Assembly: GCF_000003815.2 (NCBI RefSeq) | Contig: NC_049984.1 | Span: forward strand, 4,044,695-4,108,694 | Direction of reading: 5' to 3' | Source of the DNA: Branchiostoma floridae | Lineage: Eukaryota > Chordata > Leptocardii > Amphioxiformes > Branchiostomatidae | DNA: 64,000 bases | Part shown: piece after piece, positions 23,014 through 32,229 of the stretch | Numbering within the stretch: position 1 is the first letter of the stretch | How the letters are laid out: the number at the start of each line of letters is the position of its first letter | Translations under genes and position numbers: made by a program | Notes under the pieces: model-generated | Seen by the model: only the letters and a program-made list of their open reading frames with translations | The model's database searches: none | What the model was told of the DNA's origin: nothing

Positions 23014-26000
23014 ATGGCGGAGGGTCCGGTTGGCGAACTTCAGCAGACCCAAACAGCAAACAGCCCGACAGAGTTGACTGACCCAGGAGGGTCTACACGT
23101 GAAGAAAATGGCTACATGCCAATGAAATCAATCGTTAACAATGGTTATACTCCAATGGCTTCTCTCGTAGACACTGGCTACACTCCTATGTCAGCTATCG
23201 TAAACAACGGCTATACTCCGATGGCTTCTCTCCAAAAGGCTTCTGAGGTGCCACCGCCTCTTCCCCCGAAAAAGAACCGTCGTCGTCAGGGAGGACCGTC
23301 TCATCCCTCAGGAGACACTCCGAGAGAACCGCCGCGTCTCTCTGGAGAAACTTCCGGGGGCCCGCCGCGTCCTTCCGAAGAAACTCCGTCGCAGTTTCTC
23401 CTCCCCAAACGGAGAAACGCCAAGAGGGCCGGTGTCTACTGGATGCGGGAGGAAGACATCGTCAACCTGCCGCTGAACCCGATGTACAACGCGGACCTAG
23501 ATCTGCAGCCAGGTCAGTTCAAATTGTCCGACTGTGTATCATTCCAGTTAGTTTAAGGGAATATTGCACTGGGCGCGGTAAGTTTGCGGCGTCGTTGCCT
23601 CCTAACTAAATTCTATGTTGCCCTTTACTTTAAAATGAGAATATCGTGCAAAACGCACATGTATCGCCAACAAAAGACAACAAAATACGCAAAGCGTGAA
23701 TGATTCGCTTTCTGTAGACGAAATTCGTTGAGCGCTCTGTTCAAATCGCTCAGCAAGGCGCAGCGACGCCGCCAACATGCCGCAGCTTCAGTGAGGTAAC
23801 CCCTTACCGCCGGGCTCCCATACTCTCCCCTCACCAACATAATGTACTTGGTAAGGGGAGAGGATGGGAGCGGTAGACTAACTAGGATGACTCTCAGTCT
23901 GCAGCTGTGTTCTAATCGTAACATTGTAAGAAACACTGCGTTCATACATACAGGGAACCGGGGCCATTTAAACAAGTATTTTTCTCATTTTCACTGTTTT
24001 ACCCGGAGTTCACGAGGCGAAACGTCACCTTATCAATTATGGAATTAGATAAAACTAGACAAGAAAAAAAGGAAATTTAAAACAGTTTAGGACCCAACGT
24101 ACACAATCATAACGAAGTCATCGCTGTGAGCCTTCGTGCCCGGGAGGCAATGAAAAATCCACATAACGTTGATTTTATATCTAGAAATTGGAGTCCTGAT
24201 CTTTCCTCACATTTTTGGATCCTCGTGTCACCATGTTTTCCAACACTTAATCTACAAAAGACGAAGCGTCATCTTATCAATCATAAAATGGAACAAAACT
24301 AGACGAGTAGAAAAGCAAATTTAAAGCAGTTTTAGGACACAACGTTAAGATTCAAAACGAAGTTAAATTGTCGCTATGGGCCTTCGTATATGGGAGGCAA
24401 TGAAAAATGCACATGTCTAGAGTAGATACAGAAATATCTTAACGTTGATTTTATATCTAGAAATTGGAGTCCTGATCCTCGTTTCACCATGTTTTTCCAA
24501 CAGTTTAGCTTCAACAGACGAAACGTATTACTAACCTTATCAATTGATATAGTATGGAATAAAACTAAACAAGAAGACAAGCAAAAGCAGTTTAGGATAC
24601 AACGTAATCATGAGAGGCAATGAAAAATGCACGTCTATAGCTAGAGGTACAGACAAAATCATAACGTTGATTTCATGTCTAGAAATTGGAGTCCTGATCT
24701 TTCCTCGTATTTTTGTATCCTCTGTAGCTACAACAGACGAAACGTCACCTTATCAATTATAAAACGGAACAAAACTAGACGAAAAAGCAAATTTAAAGCA
24801 GTTTTAGGACACAGTGTTAACGTTTAAAACGAAGTTGTCGCAATGAATAATGCACATGTCTAGAGGTACTGAAAAAATAACGTTGATTTTATATCTAGAA
24901 ATCCTGATCGTTTCTCACATTTGGCAGTTCCTCTTGTCATGATCTGCACCTCACCCTGGTATCAAAACAAATCAGAAGCAAAAAACTGCAGAAAAATGTT
25001 ATGCTTTGTTGCGGGAAAGATTACTAAGATTAACTTTATAAAATCAAGAACAAGGTAGTGTCAACATATTACACCATCATCATCATCGGTCGACGTGCTT
25101 ACACACGACGGGGTTATACAGCCCCTTATTACGGGGTGACATACCCTTTCGCTGGCTAATTACAAGCCGGGGATACACCATACAGTCTTTATCACTAGTT
25201 GCAGGATTCAAAACGAACAGTCATTGCCATGGTAACCGGAATGTTATCCGGTCAATTTCCATGCCGAACTACGATACAAGATTGGCACTTGTTACCAAAA
25301 TGTGTTGAATATGTACTCTGTTCCAGTGGAGTCAGGAATATTCATAACTGGAGTAGATTTTCTTCCCCACACAGCCTTCTAATACTCTGCCGAGTACATC
25401 TGTTGTCCTATACGCTTGCCAGTTTTACATACATACATACATATCAGCGACCGGAGGTCGGGACCAGCTAATACATATTTCACCCCATAGGGCCCTATCT
25501 GACATAGCTTGCTCTAGGTTATCAAAATCAATACCAGAGTCTCTAGTTAAAGTGTCCGTAAAAGTCAAACTTCTGCAATGTACCCGTCCTCTTGGTTTCC
25601 ATACTGTTTTGCTCGGCAACAGTGTCCCGCAAATTTTACCCTTCGGTGAGTCAGTTTCTTTAAAAGCTGTGGAAGACTTCCATATATAGTTTTGAGTGTA
25701 GCATGTTGAGTCCAAGATATGTTCTGTGCTCTGCGAAGTAACTTTGTGTGAGTCCCATCTAATCTGTTCTGGAGTTGACAAGTAAGTGTCCAGGTTTCTG
25801 CACCATACAGCAAAATAGGTTCCACCAGACCTTCAGTTTGTTAGGGATATTATATGCCAGTTTTATAACACTTAGTTGTGCACAAAGCAAAGTTGTTAAT
25901 AAGTTAAACGTTAACAAAGTGATGAAACTATTCGCATTGGGAGAATGCTTATTCGCGCTTGCCTGTCTGTGTCTCTGTCTATTCTTGTGTCTGTTGATCA

Positions 26001-29000
26001 CCAAGATGGCTCAAGAATAGCTGTGTGTTAACGTTGGTAGGTTGTGACAAAAATTGGAAAATAGCTTAGAAAAAGTCAGGCGTGGATAATAATTAGGTCT
26101 TCAGCATACGGGCGATCGCGATGATGTCACGGTGACGCAATGGTCAGCACAAAGCAGGTGTTTTTTTGGCAAAATATGGGCTTTTATATTAACCAGTAAT
26201 TTGATCTGCTGATTTAAATATCAATTTTTAATCCAGTCCTCTGACGTCCTGGTAGGCACCAACCACCGAATTCCCCGGATATAAACATCTTTATTCATTA
26301 AAAAAACATGGCTTACAATATAAACATCACAGCCTAGCAGTACATTAAAGTATTAGTCTTCAGCATAGTTCATCCAAGCAATCCATAAAATGTACTTCCT
26401 GTGGCCTTACGTATAGGGTACATGGGGTAAAAGCTGAGCATGTATGCTATACTTAAAATATGCATCAGAATTTCAGTAAAATATTGTTTTAGCATAATAT
26501 CCTTAAATTCATACATGCGATTATTCAACACGACTCTTGGCTTGGGTAACAGTTTAAGAAGTTATTTACCGCTACAAATTCTAAAAGACTCGAGCTCAAT
26601 ATTTACCCTAGTTTACGCTTCTTGTGAGAGTCTTGTGAACCATGATTTACCCAGGCGCTGTGGAAATATTTCCTCTCCACATATTTGAATCTCATTACGT
26701 CGGCGCACGAGTCTGTGCTGTATGGTAGAGGTTTTCTCACGCTTGTTGAAATGTGCAAATATATCCGGTGTAAGGGTCTACTCGTATATGGGAGTACACA
26801 TAAAGTATGGGCAAACCAGATATTTTCCACTATTAAAATGACTCAATATATTTAAAGTTTCAGGCATGTTTTAAGTCCAAAAGTACACCGCAGACAAGGG
26901 AGATTTTCAAATAGACCATGTTAGGAAGTTTCATAACAGTTACTGTTCTGTATTTGATATTCTTCTTTGCAATATTATATGAAGGCTGCCTTTTCTTAGA
27001 AATATATTTTCGAGGCGTTATTTTGGCCTTATTTTTAAACATATAGATCTATGCACGAGGTATGCATTGTGGATTTATGTAGGCCGTATTTTAATAAAAG
27101 TGCTCTTACCTCGCAGTATCAGAGTCCAAGCACATCACAGTAACACAACTCGACCATGTGTTCAATAACTACATTTCAGAGACTGAAATATTCACTTAGT
27201 TCAATTCGATTGTTAGCCAACCTTGTGTCTGTAGTAACTATCTTGTTTTTAGTTCGTTTCTTATTGTAACCTTACAATTATTACTTGTTTCCGTTGTTGC
27301 TGATTTAGTTTATTCGATGTCATTTGACTGTTATCTGTTTTTTTAATATTCTATTGAGCAGAAGACTCATATAAGCATGATGTGTTTTTTGTCCTGTCCT
27401 CTTATAAATAAATAACACTAACCCACCTGTTACTTCCACATTCCACTAGGGTGGCGACTGAGCTGCGGCCGGGCTGAGACCTCAAATTTGATAGATCTCT
27501 CAAGGATTTTCTTACGCCTTATGTGTTTTGTTCACTTTTCAGTTATACTTTAACCATTGGAACAATATTCAGATAATGAGATCAAGGGTAACACAATTCC
27601 AATTTAGGTCGCAGTGAGCTCGCAGCGCGATCGCCGTCTAGCGGAACAGGGGTGCCAGGTAAAGCTTGGTTCACACGTGGGAATGTATTCAAGTCCGTAT
27701 GAAATCCTTATGGAAGTCTTATCCTCTATCAGGCTCCACAGGTCATTGGAAAAATAGTAGAAATTGGACGAATATAGACAGATAACATGCCAGGGGAGTT
27801 AGCTGTCCGAGGAGTATGGTTTGCGACCCAGCTAACTCGTTTGGCATGTTTTCTGTCTATATTTGTCCAATTTTTACTATTTCTACAATTTCTACTATTT
27901 TCCCAGCGACCCGTGGAGCCCGATAGAAGCTCAGAATTCCATACGAATCTCATACAGACGTGACAGTATATACGCACATGTGGCCGTACCCTAACCTTAT
28001 TTGTTTCTGTTGATGGCCGACCTAACAACATCTTCATGGTGACAACGAATGTCATGATTTATAATGCTCATTCAAATACCTGTTACTGATGATTATTCAC
28101 ATGTTACAGGAACTTTTACATTAACCTGCCAGCGATGTATTCGCTACCTCCGCCAAGAAGGTTACGGTTTGCGCGCGCGTTTGTTTGTTTTTGTGAACAG
28201 CACAACTCAAGAACCTGCAAATGGATCTTTAGGATATTTAGTTTGTCGGTAGGTGTAGGCAAAATGAAGACATCATTAGATAATGGGCTACCTAGCGCCT
28301 TTTAAGGTACTGCAGCAGAAATTCCGTTTTTGATATCTCGTGTTCTGGTCACAATTTTTGATAGTATATCCTGGGTTCTTGAGTGACGTAGCCTACGATC
28401 CCCAAGCACTTGTTATAACTGCAGCGGCCGATTTTAATAAAAGGTTAAAGAATGATAATACAAGAAATGGTCGACGGATCATTATGATATTTAGTATGTG
28501 GACATATTTGATAATAATTGACTTGATTAGACGATAATTGTGCAAGTCAGCAGCTAACTTAAACTAATGGTGATAAAATCATATCAGTTTTCTGCGTTTA
28601 GTGATAAAACTATTCAAACATCTGACATAAGTAAATTAGCAACAGAGGAGGATCGAAATATATATAAATGAGGACCTCGTTTGCATGATTAATGAGAGAA
28701 TACCCTTAAAGAATAGTGGCATATTTCAAGAATCGTTTTATCCCTGTTGACTTCGGGAGTTACCTAAAGGTGGACACTGGGTTATGGAGTTAACTTAATG
28801 TGAACACCATTCGACATAAATCAAGAAAATCATGGCCTTTTCTCATCCTTTTCTGCATAATGGACGAGAAAAGGCCACTATAGCCTTTCCTTGCTTAGAT
28901 GAGACTTGTATATCTGTTATTTGAGTGGAGAAGATGATGCACTGATGTAATTTATGCTAATGCTGTTTGCATAATTGATTAGAAACATTTGTACTACGTC

Positions 29001-31244
29001 ACTCGAAAAGTTGAACAGCAATTGAAGTAGATGTGAGGTCTTGGAACTCTGGTTTGATATGTCATTATTCTCGAGAAGGACCCGATGGAAGTGATCATGG
29101 TCAACAAACAACTCCGAAAGAGGTCGGTGGGCCATCCCAAGCTGGAGGTCCGGATGATGGGAGGAGGCAAGGGGACCAGGCGGCGTCTGGTCCAGCCACA
29201 CACACGTATGAGGATGGAGACGCGTTCGGGATGCGTCTCGGACCACCTCTGAAGGGAAATCCTCGCAGCGCCCCGCCTGTCCCCTCCACCCCGAGGCCAG
29301 GACGAACCACCGATGGGGCCCAACCTGTGGCGGCCGCCACACACGTGTATGAGGATGGAGAATCGTTCGGGATGCGTCTCGGGCCAGCTCTGAACCGAGA
29401 CGCACCTGCTGTCCCCTCCACCCCGAGGCCAGGAAGACCGACCGGCGGGGCCCAACAAGTGCCGGGCGGGCCAAATCCGCTATCAAACCCGCAGGACGTC
29501 ATCAACCAGCTGCAACCAAACCCGATGTACAACTCCAACCAGGCTCCACAAGCTCCGGGTTGGTATTACAGAAGAGTTGGGACATTCCTCTATATATTTA
29601 ACGGGAAAAAATACAATTATTGTATATTGTTCACAATCATTAGTAGTATACAGGGAACGGAGCTTTTCAAATTAGAGATGCTGTATGGCACCAGATGAAA
29701 TGATGTACGATTAGAAAAATGATAGTTCTGTATTTATCACAGTGAAACTTTATTTGTGTTGGTAACGCATTTGAAGTAGATGTTTATTTTCTGTTCTCCC
29801 GCAGGCTCAGCCGAAGAAAGTCGCACCATTTGTGGACGGCTCCGTCGTCGCCTGTCACGACGACCACTGATGTACACTGTCATGTCTCTGTCTCTGGCAT
29901 TCGGTACCGCGGTAACACTGGCGATCGTGGTACCTGTACTCCTGACGCACTTCAACCGCCAACCTGGGATCCATGGCTCTGTAAGTCTATTACTGATTCA
30001 TACTGAATGTTCACACATGAAGTACTGGTAAACAAACCGCCTATGCACAGCCAAGCATATGCATGAACACATTATAAACATTATTTCATATTTTTCTGTT
30101 AGAACAAATCTGACACAGAATTGTTGACTCGCCCGTTTACAGCCGACTACAATCACAACAGGACCCAACATCGCTGGCAGTACGGCCACAGCAGGACTCA
30201 AAACTACTGACAGTGCTGCCTGGCAAAGTTCTGCTGTACTGATAGGGACTGACAAGGTGACATCTGCTGACGTCATCAAGGTCAGTACTTGGGTTTCCTT
30301 GTGTGCCCATTAAGCATCAGTGTACCTCTGATGATCATAAAGCAACAGATGGCTATTGGCGACTAATTTTCTGCATCACCGATGTCCAAACATAGCCTTC
30401 CAGTAAACAGCAACACGGTGCTTACTGTACAGCAGATCTATGGACCTTACAGTAGCTGAGTTGTAAGATATTGAAACACGGAGTCCTTGTCATGGAGCCC
30501 TTGTCTTAAGGAAACTTTATGCCGACATATCACCCAAAATGACTTTCTTTACTAAACTAAATTAGATGTGATAGAAATAAATTGAGAGTTTTGCATACTC
30601 AAGACTTGACTTGTTCCAACCGTTTATAGGTGAGTCCGGTCCGTGGGCGTGGCCCCTCACCCGGCATCACTGCGGAGATGGAAGAAGCAGGACATGCACC
30701 AATCAACAAGCCGGGTTCCACGGGCACTGGAGGTTCGGGATAACACTTCTATCTTTTTTATCTTTATTTTTCTAATATTTACAATTTCTTTTTAAGTTTT
30801 CTTTAAATTGAAAAAAAAAAGGTTAGATGTTGTATCTTGTTTCATACCCAATGCACTGCAATTTACTTTTTATGTCCCTTATTTTGTTTCATAAACAATC
30901 AAACACAAAAAATGTTTTAGTACACATTAGTATCACATAGGGAGGCTGTGCTCATGACAGAACAGTTCATGTCATTATATGATGCATAAAAACAATTGAC
31001 TGGTTTTACTTTTGCTTTAGTCAAAATTATTCGCGTAATTTTGTTTCTATTATGATAGTAACTAATAAACAATGTTTTAGCGTCTGTATCCCATGGAAGA
31101 GCAGTGATATGGGATATTTTATGCCATTACATGACGCGTACAAACAGCTGGCTGGTTGTACTATTGCTCACATTCATAACATATACGTCACAGGGCATCG
31201 CACGTCAGGCTGATGAAAATACACGTGGCAAAGAAAATTGGACT

Positions 31245-31278
<34 letters not shown>

Positions 31279-32229
31279 TATATAGTATCTTTTCAAGAAC
31301 CGTTCAGCAAATATTGATGTAACGATCCGGCTGAATTACTTACCTGAGCGATGTAAACATGCTGTGTGATTTTTTTTCATTCAACAGAAACGTCTGACCA
31401 AGCCAGCAGGCCACACATAATCACATTTGGTGATGAGCCGGGGGCTGGAAAACTGCGCGGCGGACGCGGAGTTGCAGTTTCCCCCGACAACAAGATCTGG
31501 GTGGCTGATCGGTCCACAACGCGCCTCAAAGTGTACAACATGGAAGGCGTTTACCAGTACCATGGTCAGTTCTCACCAGGGCTAGGGTACACATCAAAGG
31601 AGCTATCTGATGTGTCCATCGACAAGGATGGTCATCTGTGGGTCTTGATGCTTGGGCACTATGCCAGCCCTGACTCCGTGGTACAGGTGACCAGGGATGG
31701 TGATCTCAAAGCCAACTTTGACCTACCTGACACTGTGCCACGGAGAGCGCTCCGCGGAATGGCCGTGGACTTGCGCAATGACCACGTTTACGTCACATGG
31801 TCTGACGGTCACTCCCGTGGTGGTGTGCAGGCCTTCACGCCGGATGGGAAACTCCTGTGGAATACCGGCCCGAGGATGAAGAAGCCGATGTGCGTCGCCG
31901 TTGACGGGAAAGACAACATCGTAGTCTCGGACTTGGACACTAACTTCATCTACATGTACGACAAGACCGGCCGGTACGTGATGAAGTTCGGAGGACCGGG
32001 ACTGAGTGGTGGCCGCCTGAATCGTCCCGAAGGCATCTGTGTGGACAGTTCCGGTCACATCATGGTGGTGGATGCATCCAACAAGCGCGTGGTGATGTAC
32101 ACCGGCCGGGGTGAGTACGTCCGCAACATCGCTCTCCGTGCGGAACACCCAACAGGGGTGGCAGTGGGGCCGGGGGGACAGCTTGTTGTGGCCCATAGTT
32201 ACACTATCACTGTCTTCCCCCGCTACTGA
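23014..32229 (+). CDS. Predicted type II membrane NHL-repeat receptor-like protein with YxxM/NPxY cytoplasmic tail (6 exons)
   Basis: Exons 23014-23512, 29076-29558, 29805-29980, 30143-30280, 30630-30732 and 31388-32229 join with phases 1,1,0,0,1 to 746 aa. ATG 23014 has G at -3 and +4. Order: four YxxM motifs at Tyr34, 45, 56 and 67 (YMPM, then YTPM three times); PPPLPPKK (80-87), an SH3-type motif; NPMY (155-158); two 47-residue repeats with YEDG at Tyr211 and Tyr258; NPMY (315-318); an Arg-rich stretch (339-347); one TM (about 352-375) with no signal peptide, so N-in; a Thr/Ser-rich stalk (387-466); and an NHL beta-propeller of about six blades (468-746) with repeated GVAV/GICVD and VVxxxDxxNxRV motifs. 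By family knowledge YxxM binds the p85 SH2 domains of PI3K, NPxY binds PTB domains, and NHL propellers bind protein or RNA; here the propeller would face outside. Ligand unknown. Additional exons inside the 5.56-kb intron 1 cannot be excluded. Confidence 0.85.
23806..23880. repeat. Hairpin in intron 1 of the NHL gene
   Basis: CTCCCATACTCTCCCCT and AGGGGAGAGGATGGGAG pair around a short loop at about 23835-23850. Confidence 0.6.
24015..24935. repeat. Tandem array of about four 220-255-bp units in NHL intron 1
   Basis: Each unit has GACGAAACGTCACCTTATCA, 'aaaactagac', 'gcagttttaggaca', 'gaggcaatgaaaaatgcac' and 'tctagaaattggagtcctga' in order. Units start near 24017, 24260, 24518 and 24736. The array lacks long open frames. 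Confidence 0.85.
25430..25830 (-). pseudogene. Frameshifted LINE reverse-transcriptase fragment
   Basis: Minus-strand frames show ILLYGAETWTLT, then TKLLRRAQNISW, then HRRVKFAGHCCRA, the region just after the RT core of many non-LTR elements. The sequence then shifts into another frame (KQYGNQEDG / SKTVWKPRGR). Truncated and broken; lies in intron 1 of the NHL gene, antisense to it. Confidence 0.75.
27663..27992. repeat. Complete palindromic MITE, TTCACACGTG family (about 330 bp)
   Basis: The left arm begins GGTTCACACGTGGGAATG and the right arm ends ACGCACATGTGGCCGTACC. The loop lies at about 27800-27830 between 'gttagctgtccg' and 'cagctaac'. The best copy in the window; used to recognise 6455, 7099 and 17045. 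Confidence 0.75.
28143..28400. repeat. Dispersed repeat, CTCCGCCAAGAAGGTTACG family
   Basis: Starts CTCCGCCAAGAAGGTTACGG, then a TTTGT run, 'ttaggatatttag', 'ggtactgcagcag' and 'tttttgatatctcgtgttct'. The downstream half recurs at 44360-44550 in the CIBAR gene. GGCGAAG-type pieces also occur near 2889 and 54975. Function unknown. Confidence 0.5.
30905..31180 (+). repeat. Diverged tandem duplication and TA microsatellite in NHL intron 5
   Basis: 30913-31020 and 31071-31175 share 'atgttttag', 'gtatc.cat', 'catta.atga.gc', 'aca..tg.ctggtt'. Downstream (31247-31284) is an uninterrupted TA repeat. Confidence 0.45.

Follow-up and report, generated by a model that had tools for sequence, protein, structure and literature searches.

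This study concerns a gene in a 64-kb stretch of the lancelet (Branchiostoma floridae) genome, C6:4044695-4108694, hereafter called the window; gene coordinates below are positions in it. The gene lies on the plus strand, and its six exons look like one genuine animal gene whose product spans the membrane once. Joined, they give a frame of 745 amino acids with zero internal stops, so that the initial annotation's proposal of a six-exon gene for one protein could be rebuilt with a single boundary shifted by 3 nucleotides (nt).

Exon 1 (23014..23512, +) holds the start codon, four YxxM motifs in a 33-bp tandem repeat, the proline stretch PPPLPPKK, a basic stretch and GVYWMREEDIVNLPLNPMY, and its open frame terminates at a GTCAGT donor. 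Exon 2 (29079..29558, +) carries two YEDG units and the second of two NPMY motifs; both exons end in phase 1 after NPMY. Exon 2 begins at 29079 because the acceptor common to the nine C6 copies described below is (A/T)AG, cut before a G; a start at 29076, which had given the earlier length of 746 residues, was replaced after this comparison of paralogous acceptors. Exon 3 (29805..29980, +) encodes a basic juxtamembrane stretch and a single transmembrane helix (hydropathy peak 2.33), exon 4 (30143..30280, +) a stalk rich in serine and threonine (16 of 47 residues), exon 5 (30630..30732, +) further stalk, and exon 6 (31388..32229, +) a predicted six-bladed NHL beta-propeller and the stop. When exon 5 ends from 30725 to 30744 were tried, four left the frame open and GT followed 30732 only; the donor there, GTTCGG, looks weak. 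Skipping of exon 5 would break the frame, because exon 4 ends in phase 0 and exon 5 consists of whole codons plus one base. Intron 1 contains open frames on the opposite strand (25425-25840, -) that resemble what we take to be a reverse transcriptase tail fragment of a long interspersed nuclear element (GAETWTL).

A duplicated family with constant exon order

When the genome (513 Mb, 431 contigs) was searched with exon 1, nine further copies matched most of the exon length: one is on C5 and the other eight are on C6. Each of those eight C6 loci has an exon 2 downstream of its exon 1, and then an NHL exon; with the window included, the three exons keep identical order and strand at nine loci, although in copy H the NHL exon is about 14 kb from exon 2 and was assigned by order only. 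The transmembrane exon was detected at the nine C6 loci and on C16, with the donor GTAAGT in all ten. The exon 1 donor starts with GT in 10/10 copies, the C16 relative has GTCAGT where the exon 2 donor of the nine C6 copies reads GTTGGT, and exon 4 keeps its acceptor AG and donor GT across nine C6 copies. Exon 5 is present with its splice sites in copies B, C and E, and in the distant paralog J too, there with a 6-nt in-frame insertion. Nucleotide identity to eight paralogs is 91-98% over the aligned part of exon 2 and 68-89% in intron 2; for the window against J the corresponding values are 92% and 72%. As judged from these alignments, the gene belongs to a small duplicated family in the lancelet genome. 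Between the two C6 clusters, exon 1 has a synonymous divergence of 0.53, against 0.21-0.28 for exons 2, 3 and 6; the higher exon 1 value suggests either gene conversion or that this exon had an origin of its own.

Some features of individual copies may be recorded here. Stalk exon 4 gives two matches each in copies B and C (L062, L063) and looks tandemly duplicated, and match spacing in copy J (L084:363-2365) reveals that a long array of tandem units, each of ~56 bp, separates exon 4 from exon 5. The exon 1 copy on C5 lies at C5:535 kb (L014); no exon 2 or NHL match was found near it, the NHL search having used a cutoff of 1e-20 with 139 of 745 candidates scored.

Tail motifs, membrane segment and propeller fold

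The predicted cytoplasmic tail comprises 347 residues, including 54 prolines and 41 glycines; it drew no match in a scan against Pfam and is assumed, from its composition, to be disordered. YxxM motifs start at residues 34, 45, 56 and 67, PPLPPK at residue 81, NPMY (position of the asparagine) at residues 155 and 314, and YEDG at residues 210 and 257, so that every motif listed in the initial annotation (YxxM four times, PxLPxK, NPxY twice, YEDG twice) has its place in the 745-residue protein. The nine tail tyrosines are divided among YxxM (four), NPMY (two), YEDG (two) and GVYWMREED (one). Four or more YxxM motifs arose in 2/100,000 shuffles of the tail and two or more NPxY motifs in 236/100,000, while the count of PxxPx[KR] (three) was within chance expectation (5,146/100,000). 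The YxxM sites are spaced 11 residues apart, and since they sit in one tandem repeat (3.1 copies, Tandem Repeats Finder) they do not represent four independent origins.

Retention of YxxM in ten paralogous exons is a stronger sign of importance than these chance counts. Across the ten copies of exon 1, tyrosines are kept at 60/60 positions and YxxM at 40/40, PxLPxK is kept in nine, and 85/166 columns are invariant. Among nine copies of exon 2, tyrosines are kept at 26/27 positions, the missing one falling within a deletion in copy G, and in copy E YENG replaces one YEDG; we know of no consensus docking site that YEDG represents. Tyrosine codons are mostly identical among copies (two of them share a single synonymous change, at Tyr67), so that the codons by themselves prove no selection. 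The pooled ratio of nonsynonymous to synonymous change (omega), for which copies E and F were omitted, is 0.33-0.42 in exon 1 (eight copies) and 0.25-0.36 in exon 2, and the former shows constraint on exon 1. The PI3K-, PTB- and SH3-type docking motifs of the initial annotation are thus present in the predicted tail. Its description of the tail as 'IRS-like' stands for the resemblance in motifs and fails for the domains, as neither a PH nor a PTB (IRS) domain was found in the 745-residue protein by the Pfam scan.

The protein has a single hydrophobic segment (residues ~348-374). The 20 residues on its N-terminal side carry seven K/R and two D/E, the C-terminal side one K/R, and this asymmetry predicts an N-in, C-out (type II) orientation; one signal-anchor with the tail on the cytoplasmic side, as previously proposed, therefore agrees with the sequence, the side being a matter of prediction. 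A similar hydrophobic segment follows basic residues in relatives on C16, C171 (two copies) and C3 and at C6:16.16 Mb; in a third C171 copy the examined stretch stops inside the segment.

Exon 6 matches the NHL profile PF01436 with 83.2 bits (cutoff 20). An AlphaFold2 model built from nine input sequences has a mean pLDDT of 86.5, a pTM of 0.87 and 24 strands, and in this model the domain is a six-bladed NHL propeller, so that profile and fold both uphold the propeller of the initial annotation. The best Foldseek match is the NHL domain of TRIM2 (E 5.6e-20, TM score 0.82), followed by TRIM3, Thin, TRIM71 and Brat; a phmmer search against PDB sequences placed TRIM71 first (8.1e-47).

Face-dependent change in the propeller

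Loops were assigned to faces from the model strands, D-A and B-C loops being top and A-B and C-D loops bottom. A second, hand-drawn set of classes had been drawn before the model was made, and after the variable columns had been viewed. Copies B (frame differing at the exon 6 start) and E (frame break) were omitted from the codon tests of the NHL exon, which left seven copies. Columns with at least three kinds of residue numbered 23/82 in top loops, 5/52 in bottom loops and 11/131 in strands by the model classes, and 27/91, 3/47 and 10/129, respectively, by the hand-drawn ones. Omega for the whole NHL exon is 0.62-0.69. Divided by class (Nei-Gojobori, 21 pairs), it is 1.17 [0.77-1.82] for the top, 0.38 [0.18-0.77] for the bottom and 0.48 [0.29-0.80] for the strands; the bootstrap P(top<=bottom) is 0.0045, and the top-bottom difference was reached in 13/5000 label permutations. 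Change in the propeller therefore depends on the face, and positive selection in the strict sense remains without significance. Going by these codon comparisons, the family is one whose putative sensor changes mostly on one face and whose tail is better kept.

The same tests were applied to relatives on two other contigs. A cluster of NHL genes lies at C17:18.29-18.97 Mb (loci L006, L076-L083), with at least 68 matches (counted by eye) among the 139 of 745 candidates scored. Eight of these were sampled, and for them omega is 1.21 [0.83-1.78] at the top and 0.38 at the bottom, with P(top<=1) 0.156 and the difference reached in 0/5000 permutations. No match was found on C17 in a genome search with the transmembrane exon, and the upstream part of the one C17 gene read there (L006), viewed by eye, has a coiled-coil-like N-terminus and no evident transmembrane segment. 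In the three C171 copies omega is 1.15 at the top and 0.25 at the bottom; the direction is that of the C6 family, and with three copies the difference is not significant (784/5000 permutations).

The C171 relatives also bear on the tail. Their exon 2 has two to four YDN/YEN sites in each of three copies, and NPxY was not found in it; a single YMFM lies late in the open frame of each copy and may be intronic. In exon 1, examined in one C171 copy, there is one NPMY and no YxxM. By eye, the YDNE/YEND arrays of these copies (L046, L048, L049) consist of ~45-residue units whose number varies. YxN is a Grb2-type motif. The transmembrane-NHL core thus seems, from such tails, to be coupled to differing tyrosine arrays among branches. 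On C15, a frame at 20.70 Mb (L007:640-2346) shows by eye RING- and B-box-like cysteine patterns, a hydrophobic segment and then NHL; it is possibly a TRIM with a transmembrane segment between B-box and NHL.

A candidate receptor family and its counterparts

We think it fairly probable that the gene encodes a type II NHL receptor of a duplicated family, with a ligand-binding top face and a phosphotyrosine docking tail. Such a protein would consist of a 347-residue cytoplasmic tail, one helix, a stalk rich in serine and threonine and a C-terminal NHL domain on the lumenal or extracellular side. The top face of the propeller would bind a ligand that differs among family members, and binding would cluster the receptor, whose tail might then be phosphorylated by a tyrosine kinase. 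p85-PI3K could dock at the four YxxM sites, PTB or endocytic adaptors at the NPMY sites, and an SH3 protein at PPPLPPK. We infer on which side of the membrane the domains lie, that a ligand is bound and the tail phosphorylated, which partners are recruited, and a role in immunity or self-recognition. Of the earlier proposal of a lancelet-lineage sensor signalling through PI3K, the receptor is retained as the best reading, and the PI3K step is a conjecture to which the genome adds a p85-type domain (PF16454) on C15.

Several points weigh against this receptor reading. The gene and protein are known here from genome sequence alone, and the NHL exon is shifted or broken in frame in two of the nine C6 copies (B and E). 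Constraint on the tail is uneven: single-pair omega values run from 0.26 to 0.54 in exon 1 and from 0.11 to 0.80 in exon 2. The transmembrane exon is under weaker constraint (omega 1.04 between the two C6 clusters), and the C171 relatives have a transmembrane segment and NHL domain but no YxxM array. The top-face omega of the C6 family is not significantly above 1 (bootstrap P(top<=1) 0.234). Within the 3-4-Mb cluster (three pairs) a top value of 1.89 is accompanied by a high bottom value of 0.95, and within the 23-Mb cluster (six pairs) the top value is itself below 1 (0.87, bottom 0.18). The pairs behind these omega values are non-independent and gene conversion lies outside the model; moreover, relaxed constraint could explain the difference between faces, because the loops of the top exceed the bottom turns in length. 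Finally, N-glycosylation sequons were not found in the NHL part of 10/11 family members, nor anywhere in the whole window protein, while the NHL parts of all eight C17 relatives sampled contain between one and three. An extracellular placement of the NHL domain gains no support from the sequons, since those of the family are nearly all missing and the C17 relatives have them; perhaps glycans are avoided on this domain, or perhaps it does not meet the glycosylation machinery.

The missing sequons would also suit a type II protein of the endomembrane system (endoplasmic reticulum, Golgi or endosome), with a lumenal NHL domain and a tail for trafficking or scaffolding in which NPxY and YxxM act as sorting signals. 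NPxY and YxxPhi are classical signals of this kind, and YxxM fits YxxPhi. Four tandem YxPM motifs in 10/10 copies, however, exceed what sorting appears to need, and variation on one propeller face is what would be expected of recognition; we regard this explanation as unlikely. Insertion of the protein with its N-terminus outside would likewise suit the missing sequons. The NHL domain would then stay in the cytosol and bind RNA or protein there, as part of a TRIM-NHL relative anchored in the membrane; the folds and sequences nearest to it (TRIM2/3/71, Thin and Brat) are cytosolic by general knowledge. Such an insertion would place the conserved tyrosine motifs outside the cell, against the N-in prediction from seven K/R versus one, and is highly improbable.

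There remains the gene model itself. Exons 1-2 might be transcribed separately from exons 3-6, or exons 1 and 2 might serve as alternative first exons: each of the two is able to splice directly to exon 3, and the C5 copy of exon 1 has no detected exon 2. Yet order and strand are constant at nine loci, the acceptor before exon 2 is conserved, and the open frame has no in-frame ATG upstream of FGMRL, which makes this the least probable of the three explanations. We also put forward, as a tentative and on balance doubtful extension, a lancelet NHL recognition repertoire with membrane and apparently soluble forms, in both of which the top face diversifies and the scaffold is held; in the membrane form the tail differs among branches, with a PI3K-type YxxM array on C6 and Grb2-type YDN/YEN sites on C171. 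If true, such a repertoire would be the propeller-based counterpart of leucine-rich repeat or immunoglobulin receptor repertoires.

Work on animal NHL propellers has dealt mainly with cytosolic binders of RNA or protein, with enzymes that are lumenal or secreted, and with the propeller in teneurins. The TRIM-NHL proteins (TRIM2, TRIM3, TRIM71, Brat and Thin) share the NHL domain with the window protein and are its best matches in sequence and fold; they differ in that RING, B-box and filamin domains were not found in the window protein by the Pfam scan, and in its transmembrane helix. The docking proteins IRS and GAB resemble it in repeated YxxM motifs, which are known for IRS, but it spans the membrane and PH and PTB domains were not found in it. 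PknD, which we take to be the mycobacterial kinase Mbk, has its own Ser/Thr kinase and shares no tail with the window protein, and its propeller (1rwi) ranked 49 among the Foldseek matches.

The initial annotation knew of no type II arrangement of this kind; that view is too strong, because teneurins and the mycobacterial kinase offer precedents for the layout, and it is the combination that appears to be new. Mbk is described with an N-terminal kinase, a transmembrane region and extracellular NHL repeats (PMC1262709). This matches the layout predicted for the window protein, with a signalling part at the N-terminus, one transmembrane region and NHL outside. Teneurins (Ten-m/Odz), as described in part of their source, are single-pass type II proteins whose NHL propeller is extracellular and six-bladed and whose intracellular domain has SH3-binding prolines (PMC6297184); the window protein, for which a single-pass type II form is predicted, would resemble them. 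Against teneurins, neither EGF nor YD/RHS is among the five Pfam families that match the window protein with E no higher than 0.1, and its TEN_NHL score of 16.4 bits is below the cutoff of 27.1, its NHL domain being nearest the TRIM type. The window protein also has a YxxM array, and none is mentioned for teneurins in that part of the source (PMC6297184). An earlier report of this family was not found among the matches listed in open-licence literature. What appears to be new is the NHL domain paired with a YxxM/NPxY tail, the gene family, whose C171 relatives have YxN sites instead, and the face-specific change. The one-face change in the C6 family and the sampled C17 cluster offers a testable case that, in invertebrate chordates, the propeller serves as a binding scaffold that varies. 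With a family of membrane receptors in which a TRIM-type NHL domain is joined to PI3K and adaptor tyrosine motifs, chordate signalling would gain a further class of receptor.

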